Positions 10,453 through 27,678 of a stretch of 64,000 nucleotides of DNA are shown here, piece after piece. The notes below the pieces were generated by a model. It was not told the DNA's origin and did not search any database. It worked only from the letters and a program-made list of their open reading frames with translations. Source of the DNA: Xanthomonas fragariae (GTDB taxonomy: Bacteria > Pseudomonadota > Gammaproteobacteria > Xanthomonadales > Xanthomonadaceae). Numbering within the stretch: the stretch's first letter is position 1; each line of letters begins with the position of its first letter. The position numbers and the translations under genes are program-made. The stretch covers positions 1,791,501-1,855,500 of the forward strand of contig NZ_LT853882.1 of the NCBI RefSeq assembly GCF_900183975.1, written 5' to 3'.

Positions 10453-10726
10453 GGGCTCCACTAAATATTCAGAAATTAAAATTTCGATTTAGTATAATCA
10501 GGTCAAATCTTTAATGAATTTGGGTTCTACATAGACAGTATGGCAGCGTTTTTGGTAAGCCGGCCTGCCGATTTGGGCAACAACGCTCCAAACGGAATTG
10601 GCAGGTAGACCTGACTTACAGTATCATTTTTGAAATTGCTATGGACGAAATTTTTTGCCTTACCGCTGTTAAAATGAGTGGTGCAATCAATTTTGAATAC
10701 TTTTTAATCACACTGGATATCAGCAA
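10453..10726. promoter_or_regulatory. AT-rich intergenic region upstream of the H-NS-like gene, with imperfect hairpin
   Basis: The 274 bp contain no gene. CCTGCCGATT (10564-10573) pairs with AATTGGCAGG (10596-10605), nine Watson-Crick pairs and one G-T, with a 22-nt loop. The rest is AT-rich, with TTTT/AAAA runs. This is the only promoter space for the H-NS-like gene and for the DUF3800 gene. Whether the hairpin is an operator or an RNA structure cannot be told. Confidence 0.35.
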
Positions 10727-11131
10727 ATGATTAAGCAAACCCTCGATTCAATTGCCTCAGCCAAAGCCAAGCTTGCGGAAGAGCTAAGAAAGTTGGAAGA
10801 GCAAGAGGCCAATCTGCTGCAAGAAGAAGCAGCGAACGCTTTTCAGGAAGTGTCAGATCTGCTGAGCCGCTTCGGCCAGCACTTTACCGCCAAGCAGAAA
10901 GCAGATCTCGCAGCTCAGCTTGGAGCTTCTGCTGGCGGACCTGGCCGTCCGAAGAAAGCAGCCGGCACTCGTAAGGAAGTGGCTCCCAAGTATTGGCTTC
11001 CCCACACGCAAGAAACTTGGTCTGGTCGTGGTAGGACCCCACGTGCTTTTGCAGCTTACGAAGGATCGGCGGCTTATAAAGAATGGAAGGCAAAGCATCC
11101 GGACGAAAAATTCCCGAAGTTTCCGGGATAA
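10727..11131 (+). CDS. H-NS-family nucleoid protein
   Basis: 134 residues. The N-terminal 55 residues are a charged coiled coil for oligomerisation (KAKLAEELRKLEEQEA), followed by a Gly/Ala/Pro linker (GGPGRPKK, AT-hook-like). The C-terminal DNA-binding domain has KYWLPHTQETWSGRGRTP, the H-NS core (TWSGRGR-P). The family binds AT-rich DNA and silences foreign genes. On this element it may silence the AT-rich cargo or modulate host genes. A strong terminator follows at once. The product is distinct from Fis or HU. Confidence 0.88.
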   Translation: MIKQTLDSIASAKAKLAEELRKLEEQEANLLQEEAANAFQEVSDLLSRFGQHFTAKQKADLAAQLGASAGGPGRPKKAAGTRKEVAPKYWLPHTQETWSGRGRTPRAFAAYEGSAAYKEWKAKHPDEKFPKFPG

Positions 11132-11136
11132 CGAAG

Positions 11137-11162
11137 AGCCCCGCATCGCGGGGCTATTTTTT
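11137..11162 (+). terminator. Intrinsic terminator after the H-NS-like gene
   Basis: The stem AGCCCCGC / GCGGGGCT has a 3-nt loop and is followed by ATTTTTTG. It starts 6 bp after the H-NS stop and overlaps the last codon of the convergent integrase gene. Confidence 0.9.
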
Positions 11163-12488: not shown

Positions 12489-12660
12489 GGAGTTTCCTTC
12501 TGCACCCGACACTAACGTCGAGCAGATGGCTGTCAATACCCATGTCGAAAACACTATTTTTGATGCAGTTTGTTTTGTTGCGCTAAATTTAAAATCCCCA
12601 GCAGTGTAAGGAGTCGCGAACAATGTTATATAAGTGGGTTAGATTTGTTGCGCTGTTCAA

Positions 12661-12885
12661 TCACTTTGAAGTGAGAGCGTTCAAGAGCACGCTTAGCTCT
12701 TTATCGCTAATCAGGCCATCGACATAAAGCTGGGAGAGGTGCTTCACGCGCTTAGGCGGGCGGACCTTATTGGCTTTGAGGACTTGATAAGTTGTTTCTA
12801 CCATTTTAGTGCGGAACGCGCGCTCTTCTTCGTCAAGAAGAGGCTCGGCGAGGTGATAATCAGTCGATGTTGTTTTTTTACCCAT
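12661..12885 (-). CDS. Small protein of unknown function
   Basis: 74 residues from ATG 12885; an in-frame upstream start at 12909 is possible. It is charged and helical (LDEEERAFRTKMVETTYQVL), ending in YVDGLISDKELSVLLNAL. The last part faintly resembles antitoxins of the VbhA type, but no Fic partner is seen nearby. It lies directly upstream of the integrase on the same strand, where small regulators or excisionases are common. No firm family can be given. Confidence 0.5.
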   Translation of the reverse strand: MGKKTTSTDYHLAEPLLDEEERAFRTKMVETTYQVLKANKVRPPKRVKHLSQLYVDGLISDKELSVLLNALTSK

Positions 12886-13021
12886 GCCACATTTATAATC
12901 GGGGATCAACTTCAGTCAAGGTGATTCCTGAGCCAGTATAAGAATCGCGGGGGAGCAGCACGCCCAACCTGATTCTTATGGATTAGGTATCATCTACGGC
13001 CCTCTACGGAGCTTTCATATC

Positions 13022-13744
13022 TTGGATACCCCGTGCTCCCTTTATCAATTTCTTGAAGCTGCTTCCGATTGCGCAAAAGACGCAATTCAATCGAATGCAA
13101 GCGCGGTAAGGCGATGCGCTGAGCTGGACGCCTTCATCGAGAAGTCAGCAGCAGCTCGTTTGCAAGTGCCCGTTGCGGCCCTTCTGCGGTTGAGTGCCAG
13201 AGGCATGTTTTGTGCATCGGTCAACACTGCTCTCATTGGATACCGTGCAGCGATCTTTCCGACTCTCAGAGCGTGTCTTGAAGCGGCTTGCTACGCACAA
13301 CTCATCGAACAGAAGCCAGAGCTTGGCGACGTATGGGTTAAACGGCATCGAGACCAGGATGCTCGAAAAAGGTGCCGAGTTGAGTTTAACGATGCAGTCA
13401 AGAAAACATGCAAGCGTTTCAGTAAGTTGATGCCAGAAAATGCGGGTCTCATCACTGCCATGTATGACTCAATGATCGATGACGGTGCTCATCCTAATGT
13501 CAGGTCGATCGTTCCTTCCATCAAAATGGAGGAAACAGACACACATTTTGAAGTAGGGCTTGGCTTAGTTTTGCCTAGTAGAGTTGAGACTTCTCTCTTC
13601 TGCTGCTTTGAGATTGGCCTGTTTACATCATGGCTTATGACCGACTTGAACGCGGTAGATGAGAATTTTTGGATTGAGGCTGCAAATTTGAACGACATGA
13701 AGAACGAGTGGGAGAAAGAAATACTAGGCGGCCGTGCGGGTTGA
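13022..13744 (+). CDS. Helical protein of unknown function (DUF5677-like)
   Basis: 240 residues from TTG 13022 (GGAG 10 nt upstream; no in-frame ATG before ATG 13204). It is mostly alpha-helical, with the pattern ARGMFCASVNTALIGYRAAIFPTLRACLEAACYAQLI, which resembles the RxxxE-type helices of DUF5677 proteins. There is no signal peptide. It is a single gene followed by a strong terminator. The function is unknown. Confidence 0.6.
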   Translation: MDTPCSLYQFLEAASDCAKDAIQSNASAVRRCAELDAFIEKSAAARLQVPVAALLRLSARGMFCASVNTALIGYRAAIFPTLRACLEAACYAQLIEQKPELGDVWVKRHRDQDARKRCRVEFNDAVKKTCKRFSKLMPENAGLITAMYDSMIDDGAHPNVRSIVPSIKMEETDTHFEVGLGLVLPSRVETSLFCCFEIGLFTSWLMTDLNAVDENFWIEAANLNDMKNEWEKEILGGRAG

Positions 13745-13768
13745 CGACCTTGTTCAAATTAAAAGAAA

Positions 13769-13792
13769 GGCCCCGACTGGGGCCCACTTTTT
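13769..13792 (+). terminator. Intrinsic terminator after the DUF5677-like gene
   Basis: GGCCCC and GGGGCC pair across a GACT loop, then CACTTTTTA. It lies between the convergent genes ending at 13744 and 13809. Confidence 0.8.
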
Positions 13793-13808
13793 AATGCGTC
13801 AATTTAAA

Positions 13809-14201
13809 TTAAAGCTTCAAGCCCTCATTAACGGCTTGTCGAATAAGCTCATACCACTTATCCATCTCGCGTTCATTTCCAAAACTGATCGTCCAACTCG
13901 GGTGGTCAATGTCTCGAACACTCACGCTGATCGTTCCCTCGTGCTTCGAACGATGCCAATGCTTATCCCAGGAGCGAATGTCTGAGAATTGATAGGACTT
14001 AATGGTGCTACCCATTTTAAATTTAATGGAAGAGCGAGTAGTTGAAATGGCAATCGCAGTGCGCTTGTTGAAATGGGTCCGCTGATAATTTTCTTTGAAG
14101 GCCGCACGCTCACCATGCAGCTTCAAGGCCACCACAGATCCAATCATAATAAAAAGCGCACCACCAACCAACAGGAGAAGGAGGAAAGTCCAGATCGTCA
14201 T
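13809..14201 (-). CDS. DUF4755-like small membrane protein
   Basis: 130 residues with one N-terminal transmembrane segment (residues 4-26) followed by a soluble domain. The block SYQFSDIRSWDKHW, then SVRDIDHPSWTISF and an ending MDKWYELIRQAVNEG match my memory of DUF4755 proteins, which have a PH-like fold and unknown function. It follows the lipoprotein gene on the same strand 42 bp away and may be co-transcribed with it from the CGTA-operator region. Confidence 0.6.
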   Translation of the reverse strand: MTIWTFLLLLLVGGALFIMIGSVVALKLHGERAAFKENYQRTHFNKRTAIAISTTRSSIKFKMGSTIKSYQFSDIRSWDKHWHRSKHEGTISVSVRDIDHPSWTISFGNEREMDKWYELIRQAVNEGLKL

Positions 14202-14243
14202 CGAAGTTCCAAGGCGGGGGAGGGCATACCAATGAGAAGAGGA

Positions 14244-14552
14244 TTACTGGATGCGACCGGTGACCTTCCAAACTCCGCCAATTTCGGAAAAGGTGTAGAC
14301 ACCATCCATCTCATGGCCAAACTTTCGGCCCATGGCTGTGACTTCTGCACTTACGTCACAGACATAGCTCGGAGCGCCTTCTGCCTTCGTGCATTTGCCA
14401 CTCTTGAAGTCTTCAATCCGGGCGTCGTCACTGCCGTTGTCTTTCACATATTGCAAGAACGCATGCTCTCTCTCCGTCTCTGCTGGGCCGCCTGAGCAGG
14501 CCGTCAGACCGGCAATGAGCAGGATGATGAGTGCGACACGAAGCTTCGACAT
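14244..14552 (-). CDS. Small lipoprotein
   Basis: 102 residues from ATG 14552, preceded by AAAGGA; the longer frame to 14666 would run through the operator repeats. The signal ends with the lipobox GLTAC, predicting a lipid-anchored cell-envelope protein. The mature part has two cysteines and the ending GVYTFSEIGGVWKVTGRI, a short beta-rich module. It is divergent from the XRE regulator. The partner and function are unknown. Confidence 0.75.
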   Translation of the reverse strand: MSKLRVALIILLIAGLTACSGGPAETEREHAFLQYVKDNGSDDARIEDFKSGKCTKAEGAPSYVCDVSAEVTAMGRKFGHEMDGVYTFSEIGGVWKVTGRIQ

Positions 14553-14602
14553 GGTTGGGTCCTTTGCCTTGGGTGGGTGCAACCACAAGGGTTGCAACGA
14601 AG

Positions 14603-14661
14603 CAAAAGATACGCTAAACGTAACATACGGGCAACGTAATTTACGAGCAACGTAGCTTACG
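14603..14661. promoter_or_regulatory. Phased operator array CGTA-N3-TACG
   Basis: Three 11-bp palindromes lie exactly 16 bp apart: CGTAACATACG (14619-14629), CGTAATTTACG (14635-14645) and CGTAGCTTACG (14651-14661). A fourth position at the same phase (14603-14613) keeps only the right half TACG. They fill the gap between the divergent lipoprotein and XRE genes, and the last one is 15 bp before the XRE start. The layout suggests cooperative binding by the XRE protein with autoregulation. Confidence 0.75.
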
Positions 14662-14675
14662 TTCATCCTTGGGGT

Positions 14676-15020
14676 ATGACTTCTCCCAACGCCCGCAGTG
14701 TTCGTGTCGTCTTCGCCGCCCGCATGAAGAAGCGGAGGAAGACACTTCGGCTTAGCCAGAAGGCGTTAGGAGTGCTCATGGGACTACCAGAAGATGTTGC
14801 AGCCGTTCGAATCAATCGATACGAGCGGGCAGTGCACGAGTGCGACAGCGAGACCGCCCAGAAGATGGCTGATGCGCTGGGCGTCTCTCTTGCCTACCTC
14901 TATGCAGAGACGGAAGAACTAGCAGAACTCATCCAGGAGTTCATGCAGCTTCCCACCAAAGATCAGCACGCGCTTTTGGCTGACATCAAGTCACGCTCGC
15001 AACTGTCGCGGAAAAAATAG
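14676..15020 (+). CDS. XRE-family transcriptional regulator
   Basis: 114 residues. Residues 12-75 are a helix-turn-helix of the XRE/Cro-CI type (RKTLRLSQKALGVLMGL, INRYERAVHECDSETAQKMADALGVSLAYLYA). The remaining 40 residues form a helical tail (EELAELIQEFMQLP). The ATG lies 15 bp after the last CGTA-N3-TACG palindrome, so the protein likely represses its own gene and the divergent lipoprotein/DUF4755 pair. Whether it also controls excision or the amidase is not visible. Confidence 0.88.
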   Translation: MTSPNARSVRVVFAARMKKRRKTLRLSQKALGVLMGLPEDVAAVRINRYERAVHECDSETAQKMADALGVSLAYLYAETEELAELIQEFMQLPTKDQHALLADIKSRSQLSRKK

Positions 15021-15174
15021 TCCAGGGACGGCTGGCGCATCGTTGGGTAGGGGAATTCTGATAATCGATAGGATTTTGGATCAAACGTGAAGATGGTCAC
15101 GTTACCCTCGATTGCAGACTTGTGGGACATCACCATACATTTTGTTAAGCCGACGGTGATTGCGCGGTCTTATG

Positions 15175-15202
15175 GTGACACCGCTCGGAACTTCACTATA
15201 CT
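15175..15202 (+). promoter_or_regulatory. Sigma-70-type promoter of the amidase gene
   Basis: GTGACA (15175-15180) and TATACT (15197-15202) are 16 bp apart, each with one mismatch to consensus. They lie 74 bp before the amidase start codon, and no better candidate lies in the gap. Confidence 0.45.
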
Positions 15203-15275
15203 GACGACGGGCGCAGCGTCAGGACAATAGCGCGACCCATCCCCCGAAATCGTAGTCCACTGGAAGGATATCGAA

Positions 15276-16862
15276 ATGAAAGTTGGTCTTACAAAAGCCT
15301 CGCTGCATAGCATTGCCGTTGTTTTCATGCTTTCCCTGAGTGGCGGCGTTTTTGCTCAGGAAAAGGTGTTGCAAGAAAATATGACCACAGGACAGAAAAG
15401 GCAATTGGAGTCGGATCTGACTGGGTTGGTGCAAGACGTATTAAATGAAAATAATTTCAAGTATGGGCCTTCAAGAAAAACTAAATTTAAGCTGACTTAC
15501 GACCAGCTGAAAGATACGATCTATATCGATTTCGATAAATCTGCGATCCCTAAAGAACACACCCCTTCATTCGACGAAGATTTGCAACTCATTTTTCAAA
15601 CCGTCAGTGATGCCGTAGGCCAATCTGTTCCCGTGTCCGAGATTAAGTTTCTCTTCGGCGGTTTTGATATCTATCATTATTTTCCCGAAGATCGCATTCC
15701 GGTGGAAAATCCAGGCAAAGGCATGGCGGCTCGCTCACAGAAATCTGCCGCAAACCCAGTGATGCTCATTTCAGCAGGGCATGGGCTTGTGCTGGTCAAT
15801 GCCACCAATCCTGCCAAAGCCGCGTGGGCATACCAGCGGCCTACAATCAACAATCAGATTGAAGATCTGCAAACATCTGTTCTTGCATCAGCAGTTGCAA
15901 CGAGCGTTTCTGCACGCAGTAGCAACGTCACACAGTATCTTGCAAGATCTACTTCAAACGACGCTTATAACGAGGCATGCTCTGGGACCCCTGTGGTCTG
16001 CCCGCCTTTCAAAAATATGGCCGGCAGATACTATATCAAGAGTTTGCTGCCGGATAACCCGGAGATCTGGAACAGCTATTCTGCGGAAAACAAGCGGAAC
16101 TCCAAAGATCATGAATATGATGACATCCGTTCGCGAGGCTTGTATGCGAATCATGTTCAAGCTGACCAGATGATCACCATTCATACGAATGCAGCATCCA
16201 AGGAAGGCACTCCCCAGACCACTGCCTCAGGTAGTCGCTTATTTTATAATAGTAGTAAAGCCGGTGCTTCCACGTTGGCATCAAATCTTACTTGTGCCAT
16301 GAAAGAGATCATCAATTCGAATTCGACATATGCAAATTGGGCTGTTACGACTCAACAGCCGACGACTCTTTACGGTGAGAATAACTTCGCAAATCTTCCG
16401 GCAGTGGTCGTTGAGGTAGGCTTTAAAGATAATGTCAACGACGCAACTGCGATGGCCGACACAGTGTTTCAAGGGCTGATGGCTAAGGGTATTGAGAAAG
16501 GTGCGCGCCTTTCAAGAGAGTCAAAAGTCTGTAAGCCATTTAAGTTGCTCAGCGCTGCCAACATTAGTGGTCCCAATAGAACTCGTCCGCCGGTCGTAGT
16601 AAAGTTCGAAGGCTTTCCACAATATCCGATCAAAGTCCATGCCCATGTGGCCAGCTGTCCGACTGGCACTTGCAATGATGCAGACTTTACTATTAATTCA
16701 ACAACTGATAATACGTTCACTTGGAACTTCGGGTGTAACTCATCCGCGTCGGCTGCATCCATCACCTACGGCGTCGAAACAACAGCGGTGGATGCTGATG
16801 GCGTCAAGGTGGCTGCCGTTAAATCCAATGTCACGTGTCAAAAAGTTGTCGCTAGCAGCTAA
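15276..16862 (+). CDS. Secreted N-acetylmuramoyl-L-alanine amidase (amidase_3)
   Basis: 528 residues. A signal peptide (cleavage near GGVFAQ) is followed by about 130 residues of unknown domain and an amidase_3 catalytic domain at about 160-410. Zinc ligand H169 lies in LISAGHG; the RGLYAN motif and TIHTNAA (H303) follow, and the catalytic Glu E380 lies in VVVEVGF. The C-terminal 110 residues look beta-rich, with four cysteines (SCPTGTCNDA). It cleaves the amide bond between MurNAc and L-alanine in peptidoglycan. Single gene with its own promoter and terminator. Its role on the element (cell-wall remodelling for transfer, or attack) is open. Confidence 0.8.
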   Translation: MKVGLTKASLHSIAVVFMLSLSGGVFAQEKVLQENMTTGQKRQLESDLTGLVQDVLNENNFKYGPSRKTKFKLTYDQLKDTIYIDFDKSAIPKEHTPSFDEDLQLIFQTVSDAVGQSVPVSEIKFLFGGFDIYHYFPEDRIPVENPGKGMAARSQKSAANPVMLISAGHGLVLVNATNPAKAAWAYQRPTINNQIEDLQTSVLASAVATSVSARSSNVTQYLARSTSNDAYNEACSGTPVVCPPFKNMAGRYYIKSLLPDNPEIWNSYSAENKRNSKDHEYDDIRSRGLYANHVQADQMITIHTNAASKEGTPQTTASGSRLFYNSSKAGASTLASNLTCAMKEIINSNSTYANWAVTTQQPTTLYGENNFANLPAVVVEVGFKDNVNDATAMADTVFQGLMAKGIEKGARLSRESKVCKPFKLLSAANISGPNRTRPPVVVKFEGFPQYPIKVHAHVASCPTGTCNDADFTINSTTDNTFTWNFGCNSSASAASITYGVETTAVDADGVKVAAVKSNVTCQKVVASS

Positions 16863-16964
16863 CAAAAGATGTTGGGCTTGCAGCGCCTCGACTGACACCG
16901 CGTCTAAAAGCCGCATAGTTTGGACAGTGCTACGCCCTAAGCTGAATTAGAATCAGAAATATAA

Positions 16965-16995
16965 AATGAGGAGGCGAGGCCCTCCTCATTTTTTT
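16965..16995 (+). terminator. Intrinsic terminator after the amidase gene
   Basis: AATGAGGAGG pairs perfectly with CCTCCTCATT across a 6-nt loop and runs into seven T. It lies 100 bp after the amidase stop. Confidence 0.92.
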
Positions 16996-17020
16996 GCGCG
17001 GGTTTAAGCTAGATGCGATG

Positions 17021-17836
17021 CTATTGGCTTGTGCCCAGCTGACGCTCTTCTAGAAGATCTCTAAGTTTATTTGCAGAGATCAACTCTCTACATATGGTAT
17101 AGAAGAGCCAAGCGCACCATAGCAAGACCGGGAAGGCAAACAGTGACGCACGCTTTTGCTTAGGCACTTCTTTCGCTAAATGTGATTTGAGGACAGGGTC
17201 TTTCCACACCTCGCAAAGGATTTTAAGATCTCTCGGGTCGAATGTGGGCGGGATGACTTGTTTGTCGGCAGTGTTTTTGCACTGTTCGATAGTTAAAGTG
17301 TCGCTCCTGCTTGAAAAAAGCCCTGTCGTTTTTGCCTCAGTTTCTGAAATATATAAATCGGTCCCTGTCTCTTTCAAGCTAACCAATAAGCTATCTTTTG
17401 TTGCAATCACACCCAAGACGACAGCAAGAAAAATCGATGCTGCGAGAGGGATGAATGGAAGAATCACCCACCACTTAGAGTGAACTCGCTTCGGGTGGAT
17501 GACATGGCTTTTGAGATCAAATGCCCAGCCGGCATGCCCAATGAGTTTGAGCGGGATATTGTGCAAATCCGAAAAACCAATCAGGGCCTTGGCGTCTCTA
17601 AGCGTTTGGACGCGAATTTGATGTGCCATTCGAAATCCAGCAAGTGCGGAGTGATCCGCCAAATTCTTCCGAATGACTTCGTCTTCGATGTCGTCTTTAC
17701 TGATAAAAAGACGTAGCACACGGGTGTTGATAGGATGAAGAGAGCCCGAGCGCCAGGATGCAAATACAGCTGCCGAAAGAAGAGCAATGATGGAGCCAGC
17801 AGCGATCTCGCCTGTTAAAAATTTAAGCCATTCCAT
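17021..17836 (-). CDS. Polytopic membrane protein of unknown function (DUF6216-like)
   Basis: 271 residues from ATG 17836; AGAAGG lies further upstream than usual. Hydrophobic segments occur near residues 11-30, 125-147 and 235-255, with a soluble stretch between the second and third (ETGTDLYISETEAKTTG). The arrangement recalls DUF6216 membrane proteins of proteobacterial mobile elements, a low-confidence recollection. It is convergent with the amidase. No enzymatic motif is seen. Confidence 0.55.
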   Translation of the reverse strand: MEWLKFLTGEIAAGSIIALLSAAVFASWRSGSLHPINTRVLRLFISKDDIEDEVIRKNLADHSALAGFRMAHQIRVQTLRDAKALIGFSDLHNIPLKLIGHAGWAFDLKSHVIHPKRVHSKWWVILPFIPLAASIFLAVVLGVIATKDSLLVSLKETGTDLYISETEAKTTGLFSSRSDTLTIEQCKNTADKQVIPPTFDPRDLKILCEVWKDPVLKSHLAKEVPKQKRASLFAFPVLLWCAWLFYTICRELISANKLRDLLEERQLGTSQ

Positions 17837-18258
17837 TTTTTGTAGCTGCCTTCTGGTTGTGATTGGCGGTCTTTGTTTGCCGTTTGATTGCGGCAATTGG
17901 GATCACATTATACCCAGTCCGTACAGGTTTGGTTCATGTTCATTTCATCTTGGACGCTGGCCATCTGCGCCCTGTGAAATATGTTTTAAATTCACACCTA
18001 ATATTCCCTAGGACAAATACCTAAAAAAGAGAAGGTCAAGGGCCCACATATGGTTATTTGCTCCGCAAAAACCGTGGGCATCGCTTTCGCGATGAAAAGC
18101 CGCTGCTTGCGCATCGAGTTGGCCTAGAAGCTCTGCTTAGAAATGACCAAAACCCCGTGATTTATCTCTCAAAAACGGGTCGAGTGGTTTGATCTGGACA
18201 AAAGAAAGTTTAGCCATTTTGTTATTCCCACTATCAACCAACCTCAACCGGGAAATCA
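17837..18258. other. Intergenic region before the relaxase, candidate oriT
   Basis: 422 bp with no supported gene. A perfect hairpin CATCGC-TTTC-GCGATG lies at 18079-18094, and AT-rich sequence precedes the relaxase. In mobilizable elements the origin of transfer usually lies next to the relaxase gene and contains an inverted repeat, so this is the first place to look. No known nic consensus was recognised. Confidence 0.35.
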
Positions 18259-19869
18259 ATGGCAATTTATCATGTCAGCATCAAATCGTTTAGTCGTGGA
18301 AAAGGTCAATCGTCAGTCGCAGCGGCTGCTTATCGTGCAGGGATCAATCTGCGGGATACAGCTCACAAAACGACGCACAAATATGGGAAAAGATCGGGCG
18401 TTGTCTCACAACAAATGCTTGCTCCCGATGGAGCACCGAGATGGTGTTTCGATGTTCGAAGCTTCTGGGATATTAATGAGCAACAAGAAACGAGAGCAAA
18501 TGCTCGGGTGGCGAGGGAAGTCGAAGTTTCCTTACCCAACAGTCTAGATGCTCCACAGCGCAGAATGCTTGCCCTCGATCTTGGTCAGCTTCTTGTCGAT
18601 CGCTATCAAGCGGCTGTGCTGGTGGCTGTTCACTTACCAGGGAGAAGGGGAGACCAACGCAATCATCATGTGCATCTACTCATCTCCGCCAGGAAGGTCG
18701 ATGCCAACGGGTTAGGGGATCGAGCTTGTGCTGAGTTCGATGCAAGGCGGGGAGCAGGGGCAACGGAGATGAAAGTCCTGCGTGGGAAGATCGCATCAGT
18801 GATCAATGCGCATCTCATCATGGCCGGAGTTGAAGCACGAGTGGACCACCGAACACTGAGGGCCCAAGCGCAAGATGCGTTCAAACAAGGCGATTACGAG
18901 AGGGCCAGAGCGCTCACCAGAGCACCTAAAAAGCGCATCTCGCGGGGAGAGTTCTTCCAAGCCAAGCGCCATCAGAAAGCTGTGGCCTTGGGGGAAAAGG
19001 TCTCGCCAGCGGATCGGCGCTTTGCTCAAATTTTAAAAGAGTGCCAGTCTTCCCGGGAAAACCGTCTAGTCCATGATGTGCCTGCCAGCCACAATCATGA
19101 CGCAGCGCTCCGTGATCGAGCCAGAGAGAAAGGGCAGAGGAGCTTTGCCGAACAGGAGAATCGTCGCTTCGATGATCAACTCTATCCCAACGGCCAGAGG
19201 CCAAGTCAGCAGGTTCTAAACCGCATCCATACTCGATACAGCCCATTGACCAGACAAGCCAGTAAAGTCACACGACTGGCAAGAGCCACAGGCAAAGATG
19301 CAGAAATTTTAAATCAACAAGCGGAGCTGATTGAGCAGTGGTTAGAAGCTCAGCATGAAACCGCTCGGCAAGCGTTGGACATTCTCAACAGCCTTCCGGG
19401 CATCCAAATTGAAGATTGCTTTAACCAAGCCTATGAGGTCCTAATGTGTCGCAGAGTAGATCACTACGCGACAAAGCCATTTCTCTTCGAGGATACGGAG
19501 CTGTTGGGTAAATCCATGCTGCGCTATGCGCGTATGCTCGTGAGTCCATACCGTGCGCAATGTGACTACCTTGCCGCAAAGGCTAGGCTCTCGGAGTTCG
19601 ATGGTGAAGCGCCAACGGCTGAATCTGCGTTGGCCGCTCGACAAGCTCAAAGGGCAAAGCACCTGATCTCCAAGCGAGTGATGAAGTTAAGGGAGTGGCG
19701 GATTAAAAAAGCACGATGTGCCATGGATGAAGCGAGAAAAAGTTTCGAGAAAAACTTCAAAATTGATTTGCCAATCGCGCCGGGTCCTCAAGATCATTCA
19801 TCAAACAATACGTTAGATTCTAACGAGTCCGGCCAGTGGCAACTTAGGTTCAAGCCGCCGCGATTGTGA
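18259..19869 (+). CDS. MobA/MobL-family (MobQ) conjugative relaxase
   Basis: 536 residues. The N-terminal 220 residues are the relaxase: MAIYHVSIKSFSRGKG start, Tyr25 in AAAAYRAG as the probable nicking residue, and the metal-binding histidines H136, H137, H139 in NHHVHLLIS. The rest is a long charged helical region without helicase or primase motifs. It would nick one strand at oriT and pilot the DNA into a recipient through a helper T4SS. No coupling protein or mating-pair genes occur in the island, so transfer depends on a helper. Confidence 0.9.
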   Translation: MAIYHVSIKSFSRGKGQSSVAAAAYRAGINLRDTAHKTTHKYGKRSGVVSQQMLAPDGAPRWCFDVRSFWDINEQQETRANARVAREVEVSLPNSLDAPQRRMLALDLGQLLVDRYQAAVLVAVHLPGRRGDQRNHHVHLLISARKVDANGLGDRACAEFDARRGAGATEMKVLRGKIASVINAHLIMAGVEARVDHRTLRAQAQDAFKQGDYERARALTRAPKKRISRGEFFQAKRHQKAVALGEKVSPADRRFAQILKECQSSRENRLVHDVPASHNHDAALRDRAREKGQRSFAEQENRRFDDQLYPNGQRPSQQVLNRIHTRYSPLTRQASKVTRLARATGKDAEILNQQAELIEQWLEAQHETARQALDILNSLPGIQIEDCFNQAYEVLMCRRVDHYATKPFLFEDTELLGKSMLRYARMLVSPYRAQCDYLAAKARLSEFDGEAPTAESALAARQAQRAKHLISKRVMKLREWRIKKARCAMDEARKSFEKNFKIDLPIAPGPQDHSSNNTLDSNESGQWQLRFKPPRL

Positions 19870-19890
19870 TTTTTGTGATGGCGAATAACG

Positions 19891-19915
19891 GCGAGGCTCA
19901 ACGCCTCGCTTTTTT
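19891..19915 (+). terminator. Intrinsic terminator after the relaxase gene
   Basis: GCGAGGC pairs with GCCTCGC across a 5-nt loop, then six T. It lies 21 bp after the relaxase stop. Confidence 0.9.
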
Positions 19916-19981
19916 GCGATTGGCACTTGACCTTTCGAGCCAGCGGCTTACTGTATGCTCTTACTTGCACGGCGATATGAC

Positions 19982-20257
19982 ATGTCTAATAAAATGCTGC
20001 GTTGCGGTGATGATATCGATAAAAGCTGTCACGATATTTGGCTAGCGGTCTACATCAAAGAGGTCGCAAGCCAAGATCAACAGCGTGCGGAAGAACTGGC
20101 TCAAAGCGCGGTGGAAAATTATCTAAGTCGTTGGGTTCTTGATGTTCCATGTGGCGAGGACAAGCAGCTTTATTTAAATTCAATCTTGGCGATGGAATAT
20201 GCTAAAAATCGACACCCGGAGTGGCTGAGGGAACAGGCTGCCCGATCCGCGGAATAA
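19982..20257 (+). CDS. Small protein of unknown function
   Basis: 91 residues from ATG 19982; ATG 19955 in frame is an alternative. A promoter-like TTGACC-N16-TACTGT lies at 19927-19954 after the relaxase terminator, which would support the start at 19982. The protein is acidic and helical (SQDQQRAEELAQSAVENYLSR), with three cysteines near the N-terminus and middle. I do not recognise a family. It ends 1 bp before the convergent PD-(D/E)XK-like gene. Confidence 0.55.
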   Translation: MSNKMLRCGDDIDKSCHDIWLAVYIKEVASQDQQRAEELAQSAVENYLSRWVLDVPCGEDKQLYLNSILAMEYAKNRHPEWLREQAARSAE

Positions 20258-20258
20258 T

Positions 20259-21161
20259 TTATTTTAGTTCTGATTTTAATTTTGCATTAGGGTTGGGCTC
20301 GATTTCCTGGAAGGAAGCAACCAGCTTATGGAGGGAATTTGTTTTTCCTGAGAATGCTATTAGTTTCCCGCTCGTTGTTTTAATTAGCGTCTCAATTTCT
20401 TCAGTTTTGCCGTCACATAGAAAATCCACGTATATCTGAAATTGCTTCAAAGGGACGCCTAGGGAGATGATGGTATTGGGCGGGCTTACTTCGTGTATTT
20501 CAACGGTTTTTTGATAAAGTTGCTGTATCAGGAAACGACTGATTTTTTTGCTAAAAATGCAATCGAATAACTCAAATTTTTTAGATGCTCGCAGGCCACG
20601 GAGGAGTCTAAGCTTTTGCTGGTCCGTTCTTGTTACTCCATATTCTGCTCCTTCATTTTCTTCAAAACCACCTCTTATTTGAGTGGCTAGAGCATAGGGT
20701 TCCATGGCAAGTTCATGCTCCCCGGCCGCAAAGGAGTAGTAAAGAAAATGATGGGCTGCTAATGAAATATTAAAGAGATTGAGGTAATCTGGCGAGGATT
20801 TTCCTGGCAATCCCTCAATGATTTCGCGGACTTTCCTGTGTGCATGTTTCCTCGGAGTCGAGGAGCCCCTCTGCCATTCCTCCCATATTTCAACTGATGT
20901 AGACTTGGCCTCTATCAAATAAAATTTTTCATCTCTTGAAAATTTGACATCGCCAAGCTTCTTATCAGTGTTGCCTGATAACGATACAAATAGATCAGGT
21001 TTGCAGCCATGGGCTTGGGCTATATCCCATTGTGTGTCTCTGAGTGCAATAACAACGGAGCTTTCGGCAAGACGGGCCATTTTCATACTCGCGAGATTGG
21101 TAACGGGGTTTTGCTGAATCTCAGATATCCAGCAGCTTGAAGGGATGTGATTTAAATTCAA
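20259..21161 (-). CDS. PD-(D/E)XK nuclease-like protein
   Basis: 300 residues. A helix with Glu33 (MARLAESSVVIAL), then P55-D56 in GCKPDLFVS and E84-x-K86 in FYLIEAKS follow the order of a PD-(D/E)XK nuclease active site. The rest is helical and unrecognised (AHHFLYYSFAAGEHELAMEPYALA). The start codon overlaps the stop of the upstream DUF4209/HEPN-like gene by 4 bp (21158-21161), so both are almost certainly made together. No restriction-modification partner is near. The nuclease assignment comes from motif spacing alone. Confidence 0.55.
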   Translation of the reverse strand: MNLNHIPSSCWISEIQQNPVTNLASMKMARLAESSVVIALRDTQWDIAQAHGCKPDLFVSLSGNTDKKLGDVKFSRDEKFYLIEAKSTSVEIWEEWQRGSSTPRKHAHRKVREIIEGLPGKSSPDYLNLFNISLAAHHFLYYSFAAGEHELAMEPYALATQIRGGFEENEGAEYGVTRTDQQKLRLLRGLRASKKFELFDCIFSKKISRFLIQQLYQKTVEIHEVSPPNTIISLGVPLKQFQIYVDFLCDGKTEEIETLIKTTSGKLIAFSGKTNSLHKLVASFQEIEPNPNAKLKSELK

Positions 21162-23038
21162 TTTTTTTCAATAAGTTGTTGCCTATATGGCCACATGATT
21201 AGCCGCAGTAGTGCCCACCAAAGCACGATCGTTGCTGTTGATGCAAGGTGCTCATCTTTAATTAGCCCATGGCCATAGAGATTTCTTAAATTGTGACCCG
21301 ATCGGTGCGTGAGAATGGCTTTTAGCTCGATTACGATGTCTTCGTGGAACACCTGAGCAATGTCTTCATGGCCTAACAAATCACTCAAAGATTTCTCTTC
21401 CTCTATCCCATCTTTGACGGCAAGCGTGTTGATGTTTCTACGTTTAAACGCTGCACGCACAAAAGGCTCAGCTTGTGGGATAAGAAAGATGGCTGCTTCT
21501 TCCCAGTCGTGTTCCAGTCCCGCCAGAAGGCCTCTTGCCAAGGACCACTCGTGCCCCTCCGGAACCATAGGGGACGCATGAGTAAGGGCCAGCAGATCAT
21601 TGAGCGTGGGCTCACACCGATTGCGAACCAAGCTGGTGGCATGCATGACAGCAACATTTGCAAGCAGCGGATGATAATATCGGCAGATGTTTTCGATCAT
21701 GTGTTGCTCTAAATTAGCTGGATCTTTGGCATCGAACGCATCTCCTCGTTCGACTGGCACGCCTTCATCGTTGTAGACCACCCTCGCAAAAAGATGCTGG
21801 AAAACATATTTCTTGGACGTCTCGATGACTTCCGCTTTGATTTTCTCGACCGAGGTGAAGGTTGAGAATGCAAACGCGAGTTGGAAGAGTGCCGTAGGCA
21901 GTTCTGTGCTGGTGACTTGCTGCTCGATGAAAGCAATCAGACCTCTGGTGTCGATCTCGTGGCTGACTGAGTGCATCTCATCCGAGATCGTCCTTCGGAT
22001 CTCGGCTAACTCCGATTGCAGCTCTTTAATTTTGGTTCGGTCGCCTCTGTGCCGGCGAAGCAAAGCAATGCCTTCTGCCATCCAGTCCGCTCGCACCATG
22101 GCCTGTCGGTCGCCACGAGCTTTTTTTATCAGTGCATCGGCAGATTTGTGATAGCACGCCTCAGATCGAGCAGTGTTCTTGGCGGCATGCCACAGTCTTG
22201 CGGCTTTTTTATAGAAGCTTGGAATGTTATCGACCACTGCTTCTTGGTCATCGCCAAACCATGAATCGGCAGCTTTCTCCAACTTTTCAGCGATTGTTCC
22301 AGCTAGGGAATGTTGTCTTTGGATAATCTCTTCTGCAAGTGTTGAAATTATACCAAGCCGTTTTTTATTAATTGCATGGTCGATTGCGTTGGTGGCCGTC
22401 ATCCACACATCTTCTCGGAACGCGTCATCCTTTCGACGGTATTTCCAACCCAAATGCATCGCTCGTTGCAGACATTGCAAAGAGTCCATTGCTTTAATTG
22501 ACTCATTCCCAGCGAGAAATTCCTTCGCATGATCCAAGTATGCTTGGGCGGCGACTGCTCCCATTTCTCCCATTCCCCGGCCCTTTAAGCCAACCGATGG
22601 CCCTGCCACGCACGCCACATCCGCCAAGCGCGCTTTAAGCCAAGCATTTCTCGCGGACTTGGCCATGGCTTGAAGAAACTGCACATCCAGTTGTCCAAGG
22701 TGCTGCGGAGCGGGTGTGCAGCGATTACCATCCTGCCACATTGGTCCAAATGGCTCTGGCAAGTTTCCACGGAAGTGCATTGATATGACTGCACTAAGCA
22801 ACTTCAAAACCAATGCTTCTTCTTCATGGCCTTCCTCAGCCAAATTTTTAGATCTTTGATCCGTCAGCTGGGATGCACCCCAGCGGTGATTTGTCCAGTC
22901 GTGATCGGCGAGATGGGCCTCCCAATCCAGATCATCCAAGATTGTCAGCGGAACAGGCTTGTCGATGATTGATGGCAGTGTCTCGGATTCGCTTGCCGCT
23001 TCCTCTTTTGCCGCTTGATCTTGACCGTCCATGCGCAA
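21158..23038 (-). CDS. Large helical protein with C-terminal DUF4209/HEPN-like domain
   Basis: 626 residues, almost entirely alpha-helical with TPR-like stretches in the middle (KKAARLWHAAKNTARSEACYHK). The last 100 residues match DUF4209: IKDGIEEEK-like lead, then LTHRSGHNLRNLYGHGLIKDEH. R585-N-x3-H590 has the R-x4-H pattern of HEPN ribonucleases and toxins. It is the first gene of a two-gene unit, with 4 bp overlap to the nuclease-like gene, and lies 10 bp after the integrase on the same strand. Architecture suggests an abortive-infection effector with a sensor part; this is inference. Confidence 0.6.
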   Translation of the reverse strand: MRMDGQDQAAKEEAASESETLPSIIDKPVPLTILDDLDWEAHLADHDWTNHRWGASQLTDQRSKNLAEEGHEEEALVLKLLSAVISMHFRGNLPEPFGPMWQDGNRCTPAPQHLGQLDVQFLQAMAKSARNAWLKARLADVACVAGPSVGLKGRGMGEMGAVAAQAYLDHAKEFLAGNESIKAMDSLQCLQRAMHLGWKYRRKDDAFREDVWMTATNAIDHAINKKRLGIISTLAEEIIQRQHSLAGTIAEKLEKAADSWFGDDQEAVVDNIPSFYKKAARLWHAAKNTARSEACYHKSADALIKKARGDRQAMVRADWMAEGIALLRRHRGDRTKIKELQSELAEIRRTISDEMHSVSHEIDTRGLIAFIEQQVTSTELPTALFQLAFAFSTFTSVEKIKAEVIETSKKYVFQHLFARVVYNDEGVPVERGDAFDAKDPANLEQHMIENICRYYHPLLANVAVMHATSLVRNRCEPTLNDLLALTHASPMVPEGHEWSLARGLLAGLEHDWEEAAIFLIPQAEPFVRAAFKRRNINTLAVKDGIEEEKSLSDLLGHEDIAQVFHEDIVIELKAILTHRSGHNLRNLYGHGLIKDEHLASTATIVLWWALLRLIMWPYRQQLIEKN

Positions 23039-23048
23039 ATCCTCGTGT

Positions 23049-24581
23049 CTAATTTTTCCAACCAGTTTTATTTTTCACCGCAATAGCTTCTTGCTTTGCA
23101 GTCTGTCGTCGCCGTTCCATGTGGCGAACCTGTTTAAACGAAAGATCAAATTGCTTAGGCTGATAGGCTGGCAAATCAACGGGTGGACCAAACTTTTCCA
23201 AGGCTTGCAAACGGGCTGGGACCGTGGGCGGATCAACATAATGTTTAAGCCCCGGTGGGAGCGTCAGATCATGCCCTGTGATCTGCTGAGCTGTCATCAC
23301 CGAAACGCCATGCTCATTGATCAACGCATTGGAAAGGGTGTGGCGGAAGCAGTGGAAGCTTTTGAGCCGTTGTGTTAATCCGCATTTCTTGGCATACGTT
23401 CGGAATTGGTCGCCCAACGCATCCCCGTAACCATGTTCACTGTGATACGGCAGATGGGGAAACAGTCTGTCAAAGCCAGCTGCCTTGACCTCATCTCGAT
23501 AGACCAAAATTCCTGCTTCAATCAGTGCAGAGGGAAGTGGCACAAAGCGGGAAGAATGCGGATTTTTCAAGCGCTGATCGGCTCGTGCTGCACGAATGTG
23601 GATGCCCCAACATCCTCCCACTTGATCGAGATCATCCACATAAAGTTGCGCAACTTCATTGATGCGGGCACCTGTTGTTAATCCCAACAAGGTGCCAAAC
23701 CAGCGATGGGGATACTTCGAAGCCCACATTTTAAATTTTGAAGGCTCAAACAACGCGTTGAGTTCTTCTTTTGAAAATGGATTGCGACTTGGCTCATCGG
23801 TGGTTGCCTTCGACCGATTGAGGATTGCCTTATGAGGAGCTTTGCTGATCAGATCTTCGCTGGCCAACGCATTAAAAAATGCTGCCAAACGATCTCGATG
23901 CTTTTCCTTCGTGCGCATCCCAAGTTTGGCGTAGCTGCCTTTTTTGGCTTTCTTCAAGATGTCGGCAGGGGCCAGCTGCGCAAACTCTGCCTTCTTGCTC
24001 GCGTTGCTGGGGTAGTGCTCGATGGCTTCCAGGAAGCTCCGCACATCATCGGCTTTGTAGTCTTCAACAGGCTTGTCACCGACCAAAGCAACGAACAATC
24101 CGAGGCTGTATTCGGTGTCGAAGATGTTGGTCGCACTTCGACCGACTCTTTTCATCTCACGAACATGGATGGCTGCGCGTTCAGAAAACAACGGCCCGGC
24201 CTTCTTCCTCACTTCGGTGGAAGAGGGCAGCGGGAGATTTTTCAACGCTTCGAGCAGCCGAGCATGGTCTTCGGCTCCGTCAGCAGACAGTTCCATCCCA
24301 CCCACCTTGATGGTGTAGGGCTGAGCTTCGTTGCCTTGCAATGCGGCCAAAGCCTGGCTCAGCAAATCGTCCTTCATGCTGCTTGCCCCCCGCCGCATCC
24401 GATCGAATGCTTCCGAGAGTGCCACAGCAGTTCGAGCTACGGCCAGTCGGGCAGCATCACCCAGGGACAAGCGAACGGGACGGACAAGGTAGCGCGAGCC
24501 AATGATGGCTTGCAGGTCGGTCGGGACGAAGAAGCGCACGTAGAGCCCAGCAGGGCGGCGCAGAAAATAAGGCTTCGGCAC
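23049..24581 (-). CDS. ssrA-targeting tyrosine integrase (DUF6538 N-terminus)
   Basis: 510 residues from GTG 24581 with GAGG upstream. The N-terminus (MPKPYFLRRPAGLYVRFFVP) matches DUF6538, an arm-binding-type domain of island integrases. The catalytic domain has Arg in TTGARINEVAQL, the HCFRH box, GHD, and Tyr in LKHYVD. It is the gene next to the ssrA att site, transcribed away from it, so it is the best candidate for the enzyme that inserted this island. Its start region overlaps the arm-type repeats at 24586-24609, giving possible autoregulation. Confidence 0.92.
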   Translation of the reverse strand: MPKPYFLRRPAGLYVRFFVPTDLQAIIGSRYLVRPVRLSLGDAARLAVARTAVALSEAFDRMRRGASSMKDDLLSQALAALQGNEAQPYTIKVGGMELSADGAEDHARLLEALKNLPLPSSTEVRKKAGPLFSERAAIHVREMKRVGRSATNIFDTEYSLGLFVALVGDKPVEDYKADDVRSFLEAIEHYPSNASKKAEFAQLAPADILKKAKKGSYAKLGMRTKEKHRDRLAAFFNALASEDLISKAPHKAILNRSKATTDEPSRNPFSKEELNALFEPSKFKMWASKYPHRWFGTLLGLTTGARINEVAQLYVDDLDQVGGCWGIHIRAARADQRLKNPHSSRFVPLPSALIEAGILVYRDEVKAAGFDRLFPHLPYHSEHGYGDALGDQFRTYAKKCGLTQRLKSFHCFRHTLSNALINEHGVSVMTAQQITGHDLTLPPGLKHYVDPPTVPARLQALEKFGPPVDLPAYQPKQFDLSFKQVRHMERRRQTAKQEAIAVKNKTGWKN

Positions 24582-24585
24582 GGGG

Positions 24586-24609
24586 TTTGATACCTCGTTT
24601 GATACCTAA
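24586..24609 (+). repeat. Right pair of arm-type repeats (TTTGATACCTCG / TTTGATACCTAA)
   Basis: Two 12-bp units in tandem, in the same orientation as the pair at 7457-7480. They overlap the promoter and ribosome-binding region of the integrase gene and lie 77 bp from the right att core. Confidence 0.55.
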
Positions 24610-24686
24610 CGCAGGCTCAAACTGAACATCAAACCCCGGGCCGAACCTTCGCAGAATCAAGCACTTACTGCTCTCTTCCGCGTTCA

Positions 24687-24705
24687 GATGGTGGAGGTGG
24701 GCGGA
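24687..24705 (+). repeat. Right attachment core within the 3' end of ssrA
   Basis: GATGGTGGAGGTGGGCGGA contains the CCA end and acceptor strand of tmRNA on the opposite strand. It matches the left core at 18 of 19 bases, and the tmRNA is complete after insertion. Confidence 0.85.
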
Positions 24706-25085
24706 ATCGAACCGCCGTCCGGAAGCACTCCATCCCCAGCACTACATGCTTAGCCCTCCGTTAGATCTCATCTCCAGGCAGCACGGCTGGCAAAGCGCAC
24801 CTGGAGACCAGCCTGCTTTATCTAACCGGTAGCTGACAGGCAGCCACTACCGATGGTTCCGTGATAATGACCCTACACCTACGAGCACGGGCACAAGTAG
24901 GTTCGGGGGTTCGCCTTAGGCGGCTGTAGAACTACAACTAAAGCTGATTAAGCAGCGATAGCGAAGTCCGAACCGTAGTTGTCATCGTTGGCAACTAAAA
25001 GTTTGCTGCTGGATTAACGAGGAAAGCTGCCCCCTCGGCATGCGCCAAGCGACTTCGCGACCCCCGTCGAAACCAGTGCACCCCC
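24689..25085 (-). ncRNA. ssrA: Transfer-messenger RNA
   Basis: Read on the minus strand the 5' end GGGGGTGCACTGGTTTCGAC and the 3' end GGTTCGATTCC...CACCTCCACCA form the tRNA-like acceptor stem (GGGGGUG with CACCUCC). The tag reading frame at 24992-24948 encodes ANDDNYGSDFAIAA followed by TAA. tmRNA with SmpB frees ribosomes stalled on broken messages and tags the products for proteolysis. The length of 397 nt, with CCA encoded, is typical. Its 3' end is the integration site of the island to the left. Confidence 0.96.
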
Positions 25086-25143
25086 GGGGAAAGCATCAAA
25101 ACGCCGACAAGACCAGTGTAGGGAACGGCGCGCCCTGTCACAA

Positions 25144-26364
25144 GTGGCGAGATACGCAGCGCTTACAGTGGCTTCAGTGCCGTGCCGGGCGGCACAATCT
25201 ATAAATGAAGGAGCGAAGCGATGGCGACAGGCAAGCCCCCCCCGTCCACGGCCCGCGCGCGCTGCGCCGCGCAAGTCAGCAAAAAGCGCTGAAAAACCGG
25301 TGCGTCAGCGTGAAAAGCATCTACCGCAGCCGGGGGCGCAGGCGCCCGCGTTGACCCGGGTGCAGGGCAGGGCGCGCACCGTGATCTACATCCACGGCAT
25401 CGGCAACAAGCCGCCAGCCGAGGTGCTGCGCTGCCAATGGGACCAAGCGCTGTTCGGGCGGCCGATGGGCGAGCGTACGCGGCTGGCGTATTGGGTCAAT
25501 CGCGAGCGTTATCCGTTCGCCGAGCCGGGCAACTGCGATGCGCGCGACGTCGGGCCTGCGATCAACCAGAGCGTGCAACGCACCTTGAGTACGCTTGGGT
25601 TAGTGCCGGGCGAGCAGGATCTGCATCTGCTGGCCGATGCGTTGGCGCAGAACGAACAGGAACGCGCGGATCTGCATCGGCTGCTGGATGAGTTGGATGG
25701 CGCGCGTGCCCTCCGCAGCGTGCATGCCAAAGGATCCATCGATGCGATCAACCGGCTGCTGCTGCGGCTGATTTCCGCTGCGTTGCTGCAGGACGTGCAC
25801 GACCTGTTCTTCGTGCCGGAGCGCGCGGCGCTGATGCGCGAAAGCCTGGCACAACGGTTGCGCTCGGGCGGCGGGCCATTCGTGGTGGTCGCACACAGCC
25901 AGGGTTCGATGATCGCCTACGACGTGCTGCGCCAACTACAGGCCGCGGACTGCGAGGTCACCTTGTTCCTTACCCTGGGCTCGCCACTGGGCTTGCCGCA
26001 GATGCGCAGCATGTTCAAGCGCTGGACAGGTGCGCGCAAACTGCCGTTTCCCGACTGTGTGCAGCGCTGGTTCAATGTGGCCGAAACGCGCGACCCAGTC
26101 GCGCTTGATTCGGATCTCACCGGCGACATTGCCAATGCCAAGGGGCGCTTCGAGAATCTGTCCGGCGCACGCCTGAATCCGGATTGGCCGTACAACGCGC
26201 ATTCGGGTTCGGGCTATCTAACGATTCCGCAGGTGCGTGCCGCAGTGCGCGAGACGGTTGGTGTCGGCTTCGATCAGCCAGTCTCCAATGTGGTGTTGAT
26301 CAAGGATCTCAGCGAGCAACTCGAAGCGCACGGTCCAGAGTATCGGCATGAGGTATTGATCTAG
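25144..26364 (+). CDS. Alpha/beta-hydrolase family protein, start uncertain
   Basis: 406 residues if read from GTG 25144. The core has VIYIHGIGNKP and the nucleophile elbow VVVAHSQGSMIAYDVL (AHSQG), so a serine hydrolase or lipase-like protein is likely; the substrate is unknown. The natural start ATG 25221 has AAGGAG upstream but is in another frame, separated from the coding frame by a run of eight C (25236-25243). One C fewer would join them as MATGKPPRPRPARAAP. The run could be a sequencing error, a real frameshift, or a slippage switch. A subtilase gene follows 12 bp later. Confidence 0.75.
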   Translation: MARYAALTVASVPCRAAQSINEGAKRWRQASPPRPRPARAAPRKSAKSAEKPVRQREKHLPQPGAQAPALTRVQGRARTVIYIHGIGNKPPAEVLRCQWDQALFGRPMGERTRLAYWVNRERYPFAEPGNCDARDVGPAINQSVQRTLSTLGLVPGEQDLHLLADALAQNEQERADLHRLLDELDGARALRSVHAKGSIDAINRLLLRLISAALLQDVHDLFFVPERAALMRESLAQRLRSGGGPFVVVAHSQGSMIAYDVLRQLQAADCEVTLFLTLGSPLGLPQMRSMFKRWTGARKLPFPDCVQRWFNVAETRDPVALDSDLTGDIANAKGRFENLSGARLNPDWPYNAHSGSGYLTIPQVRAAVRETVGVGFDQPVSNVVLIKDLSEQLEAHGPEYRHEVLI

Positions 26365-26376
26365 CTGGATCGGCGG

Positions 26377-27678
26377 TTGCCGGGCAACGACCCGGCTGGT
26401 GTTCGCGTGCTGCTGTTGTCGGAGTTACGCGATACCGCAGCACGTAGCACCGGCCTGGGTGGCGACGCGTTGGATGAAGTGATCGAACTGGAAGACAGCT
26501 TGCAGCGCTTCGTGTCGGTGCGGCTGACGCGCTTCGAGATTGAATCGCTGCAGGATCGCTATCGCGCATTGGGGTTCCGGCGCGTGTGGCGCGATGCTGG
26601 CAAACGTGCGCTGATCCACGCCTCCGGCAACGTGTTGCATGCCGATGCCGCACGCACCGCGTATCACGCGCGTGGGCAGCAGATCGGTTGGGCGGTGCTG
26701 GATACAGGCATCGCGGCTGACCATCCGCACTTTTTCGTCAAGGGTGAACGCGACAACGTGGTGGCGCAATGGGATTGCACGCGACGTGGTGTGGCCAAGC
26801 GGCTTACGCGCGCGGATGGCGATGCGTTTGCCAAGCTCGATCGACATGGGCACGGCACGCATATCGCCGGAATCATTGCCGGCCAATGTCGTGCTGTGAT
26901 TCCTGATGCACAGAGCAATCCCGGCAGCCCGCTGGAGTTTGCCGGCATGGCGCCAGATACCCAGTTGTACGGCTTCAAAGTGCTCGACGATGCAGGAAAC
27001 GGCCGCGATTCGTGGATGATCAAGGCGGTGCAGCAAGTGGCCGCGATCAACGAGCGCGCCAGCCAGTTGATCATCCATGGCGTGAATCTTAGCCTGGGCG
27101 GCTACTTCGACCCGGAGAGTTGTGGCTGCGGCTTTACGCCGTTATGCAACGAATTGCGGCGGCTGTGGCGGCTGTGGCGGCAGGGCGTGTTGGTGGTCGT
27201 CGCCGCAGGCAACGAAGGCCTTGCCTGGTTGATGCGCAACGATGGCGATGCCCATCCGGTGAATATGGACCTCTCGATCAGCGACCCGGGCAATCTTGAA
27301 GACGCCATCGTGGTCGGCTCGGTGCACAAGAGCAGTCCGCACAACTACGGCGTGTCGTATTTTTCGTCGCGCGGGCCGACAGCCGATGGCCGTGGCAAGC
27401 TCGATGTGGTCGCGCCAGGCGAGAAGATCCTGTCGGCCTATTACGGCTTCGATCCAAAAGATCCGGCTAGCCTGATGGTGGAGATTAGCGGCACCAGCAT
27501 GGCTGCGCCGCACGTCTCCGGCGTACTGGCCGGCTTTTTGTCGGCACGCCGCGAGTTCATTGGTTTCCCGGATCGGGTCAAGCAGCTGCTGCTGGAAACC
27601 AGTATCGACCTGGAGCGCGATCGCTATGTGCAGGGCAGGGGGCTGCCGAATTTGATGCGGATGCTTGAAAAGACGTGA
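26377..27678 (+). CDS. S8 (subtilisin-like) serine peptidase
   Basis: 433 residues from TTG 26377. The catalytic triad is complete: D109 in AVLDTGI, H159 in RHGHGTHIAG and S374 in GTSMAAPHVSG; the oxyanion segment VVVAAGNEG is present. There is no signal peptide, so it is probably cytoplasmic, and no prodomain is recognised. It follows the alpha/beta-hydrolase gene by 12 bp and the two are likely an operon. Pairs of a hydrolase and a subtilase are sometimes seen in regulatory or defence contexts, but here function is open. Confidence 0.85.
   Translation: MPGNDPAGVRVLLLSELRDTAARSTGLGGDALDEVIELEDSLQRFVSVRLTRFEIESLQDRYRALGFRRVWRDAGKRALIHASGNVLHADAARTAYHARGQQIGWAVLDTGIAADHPHFFVKGERDNVVAQWDCTRRGVAKRLTRADGDAFAKLDRHGHGTHIAGIIAGQCRAVIPDAQSNPGSPLEFAGMAPDTQLYGFKVLDDAGNGRDSWMIKAVQQVAAINERASQLIIHGVNLSLGGYFDPESCGCGFTPLCNELRRLWRLWRQGVLVVVAAGNEGLAWLMRNDGDAHPVNMDLSISDPGNLEDAIVVGSVHKSSPHNYGVSYFSSRGPTADGRGKLDVVAPGEKILSAYYGFDPKDPASLMVEISGTSMAAPHVSGVLAGFLSARREFIGFPDRVKQLLLETSIDLERDRYVQGRGLPNLMRMLEKT

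Follow-up and report, generated by a model that had tools for sequence, protein, structure and literature searches.

The closest described counterparts of the first of the two genes reported here are the DUF4209/C6orf70 family (PF13910), C6orf70 also being named ERMARD, and the PADLOC candidate PDC-S39, whose "S" stands for a single gene; those of the second are PD-(D/E)XK nucleases of the Hjc, RecU and VRR_NUC type. The two genes, here called A and B, lie on the minus strand of a 64,000-nucleotide stretch of the Xanthomonas fragariae genome (G000:C1:1791501-1855500, part of a 4.33 Mb genome), which is the window throughout this text. A 2013 account placed DUF4209 among the HEPN families; its relevant passages describe the family as fused to TPR, predict an endoplasmic reticulum-membrane location for the eukaryotic members, and describe an Ex3[KR] motif for HEPN domains (PMC3710099). 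PDC-S39 is listed in P. aeruginosa PAO1 in a passage that reports no test of it (PMC11878078), and experimental proof of its anti-phage activity was not found in the open-access papers searched. A comparable genomic setting is the psu-integrase hotspot of P4-type elements, described in the pertinent part of PMC9122126, where small mobile elements carry variable defence cargo beside their integrase.

The original prediction treated genes A and B as a two-gene unit and a candidate for a defence system that had not been described. Both reading frames proved to be real and both genes follow the tyrosine integrase at 23049-24581, directly downstream of it, next to which that prediction had placed them. 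They are, however, probably independent of each other, two defence-type genes within one cargo slot of a mobilisable element integrated at ssrA; we read them as separate cargo because relatives of both were not found side by side. The observations behind this reading are the sequences themselves, their conserved residues, the predicted folds, the element context and an exchange of cargo between related elements. The two open reading frames (ORFs) are as follows.

21158..23038, minus strand: gene A, DUF7380-DUF4209 protein matching PADLOC PDC-S39, ORF of 626 amino acids, probable ATG start at 23032
20259..21161, minus strand: gene B, ORF of 300 amino acids from a TTG, PD-(D/E)XK-type, probable true start an ATG at 21086 or 21080

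Pairing of genes A and B

Relatives of gene A are present in 13 of 395 genomes of the family and 3 of 35 genomes of the genus, and relatives of gene B in 13 of 390 family genomes (12 of 395 with a narrower profile). Only the window's genome and one other, G310, contain both, and in G310 (L040) a distance of 4.1 kb separates the two relatives, which lie on opposite strands. Without the window's genome, co-occurrence amounts to one genome against 0.37 expected (p = 0.32). At the level of neighbourhoods, gene B was next to gene A in none of the 11 other genome loci and none of the 7 plasmid loci read (0/18; 7 of the 27 matching plasmid records were examined), and gene A was next to gene B in none of the 14 other gene B places read, on 13 fetched stretches. 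These counts include broken or fragmentary loci (L043, L044 and L046 for gene A, L037 for gene B) and leave out several minor hits: for gene A, one in G124 that was weak and partial and an additional short piece in G394; for gene B, one in G237 that was also weak and partial, weak matches in G583 and G587, and a small-contig fragment in G170. An obligate A-B pair is thereby rejected for the loci read, close Xanthomonas strains lying outside them, and in these loci the proposed two-gene unit fails the refuting condition set with it, homologues that do not co-occur.

A single two-component system, at least within Xanthomonas, in which A would sense infection and cut RNA while B would cut DNA and evolve faster in an arms race, is nonetheless suggested by several features. 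The genes are co-directional, with a spacing of 71-77 bp for a gene B start at 21086 or 21080, the minus strand from the integrase to gene B has no terminator-like site by a weak type of scan, and the co-occurrence count rises to two, with p = 0.065, when the window's own genome is included. Protein relatives from two further species also weigh against independent cargo. In X. arboricola and X. axonopodis strains, gene A is 86-89% identical to the window's copy and gene B 53% identical, and therefore either the rates or the histories of the two genes differ. Equal longest-contig values in the records suggest that one X. arboricola strain (P0005 for B, 53%; P0011 for A, 89%) and one X. axonopodis strain (P0003 for B, 53%; P0022 for A, 86%) may hold both genes, and in each strain the two proteins may share a contig. 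Pairing may recur among close Xanthomonas strains. Against a single system, a shared contig is no proof of adjacency, and P0022 has just 470 amino acids with no DUF4209 listed; PADLOC lists gene A as a separate candidate; the collinear element of genome G261 has a gene B relative directly after the integrase and no gene A; and the partner is adjacent in none of the 18 A loci and 14 B places. We consider one joint system unlikely.

The 4-bp overlap of the two ORFs, considered as a sign of an operon, was rejected as doubtful evidence, as it depends on the TTG start of gene B. That start probably lies at 21086 or 21080, approximately 75 bases downstream of the TTG and 71-77 bp after gene A, because nine database relatives begin at residue 26 or 28 of the window protein and residues 1-27 have a predicted local distance difference test score (pLDDT) below 50 in the model. 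The named nearest protein relatives of both genes are from Xanthomonas.

Gene A, a DUF7380-DUF4209 protein

Judged from its sequence, gene A is a HEPN-type DUF7380-DUF4209 protein of the already catalogued candidate family PDC-S39, so that the description of the locus as undescribed is not supported for this gene. Its match to PDC-S39 is near full length (328.8 bits, E 1.8e-98, residues 32-621 on profile positions 11-603 of 615) and involves no second gene. The HEPN-type C-terminus that had been recognised by eye is supported by a PF13910 score of 56.4 bits, above the Pfam cut-off of 22.3, and by four invariant residues.

22424..22939, minus strand: DUF7380 domain, residues 34-205 (PF24098, E 1.5e-29)
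21203..21457, minus strand: DUF4209 (HEPN) domain, residues 528-612 (PF13910, E 3.3e-15)
21269..21286, minus strand: HEPN motif R585-N586-x3-H590, from alignment conservation
21455..21469, minus strand: second HEPN motif, E524-x3-R528, from alignment conservation

The R-N-x3-H pattern is present as claimed, R585 and H590 being the same in all 35 sequences of the alignment (the window included), with N in 25 and H in 10 at position 586, a polar residue after the R as in the Rx4-6H motif of HEPN proteins. Upstream, E524 and R528 are likewise invariant (35/35) and correspond to the acidic Ex3[KR] motif of the superfamily. In the structural model the C-terminus is mostly helical, with the R-N-x3-H motif at a helix end. 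The fold search returned no match for the HEPN part, its rows mainly covering residues 25-356, and the PDB sequence search with gene A gave two weak irrelevant rows only. Translation probably begins at the ATG at 23032, 16 bp past the integrase stop, with GAGGA ahead of it at 23044-23040 (read by eye). With DUF4209/C6orf70 the protein shares R-N-x3-H, E-x3-R and an above-cut-off Pfam match; it differs in being bacterial, in carrying the extra DUF7380 domain, and from the eukaryotic members in their predicted membrane location.

Gene A relatives are found on plasmids of Xanthomonas, Natrinema, Aeromonas, Klebsiella and others. On pLMG930.1 (L116 1-7776) the relative adjoins a Tn3 transposase, and adenylate/guanylate cyclase, TIR and cyclic-nucleotide-binding genes lie within about 5 kb. 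ORF612 (L123 220-2058) of the P2-like prophage P2-EC46, the one coding sequence of its 2,192-base record, is a relative that retains the E-x3-R and R-x4-H residues. Scans by short exact patterns found nothing in viral contigs for either gene, and in genome contigs nothing for gene A and two loci for gene B; such scans can miss relatives, and the whole-genome search found gene A relatives that the scan of genome contigs had not.

For both proteins we infer catalysis, substrate, trigger and a role in defence, specifically against phages. Gene A would act as a single-gene abortive-infection-type protein, in which the helical-repeat body (DUF7380 and a TPR-like solenoid) would sense an infection cue or keep the protein inactive, after which the C-terminal HEPN domain (E524, R528, R585, H590) would cut RNA independently of metal and so halt translation or growth of the host. 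Alternatively, gene A could serve the mobile element as an RNase for addiction or stress response, a toxin held in check in cis with no anti-phage function. According to the passages cited above (PMC3710099), conflict and stress systems in general contain HEPN domains as toxins and RNases, and the position of gene A 16 bp after the integrase could allow co-expression. No antitoxin-like partner recurs, however, within four genes of the 11 other A loci, where an integrase group (3 loci) is the only neighbour common to more than two, and the relatives include one from a P2-like prophage and others in the vicinity of defence-type genes. An addiction RNase is very unlikely in our assessment.

Gene B and its predicted active site

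Gene B is, from its model and alignment, a predicted nuclease of PD-(D/E)XK type that belongs to an unnamed family of known fold. It had no above-cut-off match in Pfam, PADLOC, NCBIfam or PHROGs and no sequence match among PDB chains.

21063..21065, minus strand: E33, predicted active-site Glu on a helix (23/23)
20949..20951, minus strand: D71, predicted metal-binding Asp (23/23)
20904..20912, minus strand: E84-x-K86 (both 23/23)

Four residues, E33, D71, E84 and K86, are invariant in all 23 aligned sequences (the window included), as are eight further positions, among them W45, H137, P155-Y156 and G235. The predicted E84-x-K86 element is thus real, and D71 followed by E84 and K86 has the Asp then (D/E)-x-K order and spacing of these nucleases. 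The nuclease Asp had been placed at P55-D56, and this assignment is rejected: P55 is present in 20 of 23 sequences, D56 in just 7; the conserved Asp is D71, and E33 is a further invariant Glu. The predicted structure has the alpha-beta-beta-beta-alpha core, and its best structural neighbours (VIA) are PD-(D/E)XK nucleases, including the Holliday-junction resolvases Hjc and RecU, in agreement with the original PD-(D/E)XK-like reading. Foldseek returned nothing at E <= 0.001, its first row being DhaK (0.046), followed by HincII at about 0.2. The likeness to Hjc, RecU and VRR_NUC extends to the Glu on the first helix, the Asp 13 residues before E-x-K, the order of core elements and the top VIA rows; gene B differs from them in its lack of a PDB sequence match or above-cut-off Pfam match and in its eight other invariant positions.

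Acting alone, gene B would be a metal-dependent DNA nuclease, with E33, D71, E84 and K86 at its active site, that attacks incoming or competing DNA. A different role, as an accessory of integrative elements such as a resolvase-like nuclease that aids the integrase or processes element DNA, would fit the Holliday-junction resolvases among its structural neighbours and its proximity to an integrase, at most 700 bp away in 11 of the 14 other B places (L054 judged by ORF end), these integrases forming two groups, c0 and c6. In contrast, none of 14 other related-integrase loci (L091-L104, several of them short) carries a gene B relative, and placement varies between same-strand and convergent. Known defence genes occupy the same slot, and therefore proximity to an integrase may mark the slot and not the function. 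An accessory role appears improbable. We also regard as rather unlikely a broader proposal, that gene B is the founding member of a PD-(D/E)XK defence nuclease family, as yet undescribed, that travels with tyrosine integrases within the Xanthomonas family, and that in Xanthomonas itself it forms a dual RNA- and DNA-cutting system with a HEPN DUF4209 sensor, the nuclease half diversifying much faster.

One gene B relative adjoins an ABC-3C set (CTD7, MC3, DUF3732). No gene B relative was detected in plasmids or phages by tblastn, and plasmids yielded no match to the DNA of the cargo block or to the 100-residue ORF at 19955-20257. That ORF and another at L053 7618-7854, both small and convergent with gene B genes, look similar by eye, and BLASTP gave no match between them. 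Directly upstream of the relative in L052, a 1366-residue protein (8618-12718) appears by eye to be NTPase-like with a nuclease-like end; it had no Pfam match at E 0.01 and no PADLOC match at E 0.001.

The cargo slot between integrase and relaxase

Moving off ssrA on the minus strand, the order is tyrosine integrase, gene A and gene B, and a MobA/MobL relaxase faces them.

24689..25085, minus strand: transfer-messenger RNA (tmRNA) gene ssrA, the integration site, tag ANDDNYGSDFAIAA (ARAGORN)
23049..24581, minus strand: tyrosine integrase, 510 amino acids (Phage_integrase PF00589; DUF6538 sub-threshold)
19897..23106, no strand: variable cargo block with gene A, gene B and the 100-residue ORF (blastn of window against L053)
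19955..20257, plus strand: 100-residue ORF convergent with gene B, no family match above cut-off
18259..19869, plus strand: MobA/MobL (MobQ-type) relaxase at the other edge of the cargo slot (PF03389, 6e-36)

The integrase is 107 bp from ssrA, and the relaxase scores 172.2 bits against the MobQ model, under the model cut-off of 200. G+C content is 63.0% in the flank (25144-27678), 52.9% in the integrase, 50.2% in gene A and 42.2% in gene B; it is 44.5% in the gene B relative of L053. That the genes are cargo of a mobile element, as initially proposed, is borne out by their position between the ssrA integrase and the relaxase and by the exchange of cargo in G261, a genome of another genus of the family. 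Its integrase is 95% identical to the window's, and its collinear ssrA element (L053) matches window positions 11506-14941 (89%), 17021-19896 (82%) and 23107-25176 (88%) by blastn. Block 19897-23106 is replaced there by about 1.3 kb containing a gene B relative (27% identical), which directly follows the integrase, and no gene A. Window positions 14942-17020 also differ; this second variable stretch holds an Amidase_3 gene (15276-16862) in the window and a 341-residue ORF in L053.

Among 16 related-integrase loci (14 fetched, the window and L053; matches weaker than E 1e-150 excluded), tmRNA lies beside the integrase in 13, and a relaxase relative is on the stretch in 8, several stretches stopping at contig ends. 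Ten cargo proteins from five integrase loci were scanned. STK_OB, PP2C and TerY in L094 (the TerY-P triad, 5755-10062) and GajA in L097 match PADLOC near full length; a separate 309-residue protein of L094 is above the Pfam HEPN cut-off, a 530-residue protein of L096 is above the PLDc_2 cut-off, and another L097 protein is a transposase. The cargo of L092 and L095 and a 735-residue protein of L096 had no match above cut-off. Because the scanned proteins include TerY-P, GajA and unmatched genes, the slot is a site of variable cargo, some of it consisting of known defence-type genes: the same integrase and site are combined with different cargo, as in integrase-proximal hotspots. It resembles the P4-type hotspot (as presented in the cited part of PMC9122126) in its variable defence cargo next to an integrase on a small mobile element, and differs in being bounded by a MobA/MobL relaxase, in its site, ssrA, and in its occurrence in the Xanthomonas family.

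For the far end of the element, where a second copy of the tmRNA 3' end would mark the distal att site, only a weak candidate emerged, 18 bases at window positions 7375-7392 that match with 2 mismatches. A TIGR04141/DUF6119 "sporadically distributed" protein, a strong match, is encoded at 7483-9330, adjoining this weak copy. A second tyrosine integrase at 11154-12623 on the minus strand suggests tandem elements at ssrA, and G261 likewise has an integrase match on the corresponding side. Elsewhere in the window's genome is a further integrase, 76% identical (L091 11120-12646; G000:C1:701122-702645), with no tmRNA within the fetched stretch.

If independent cargo is the right reading, an apparent new two-gene system becomes two simpler claims: DUF7380-DUF4209 (PDC-S39) proteins would be single-gene HEPN RNases, and gene B would represent an unnamed nuclease family that deserves its own profile. 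It would also mark ssrA in the Xanthomonas family as an integrase-relaxase cargo site, and thus as a place to seek further defence genes.
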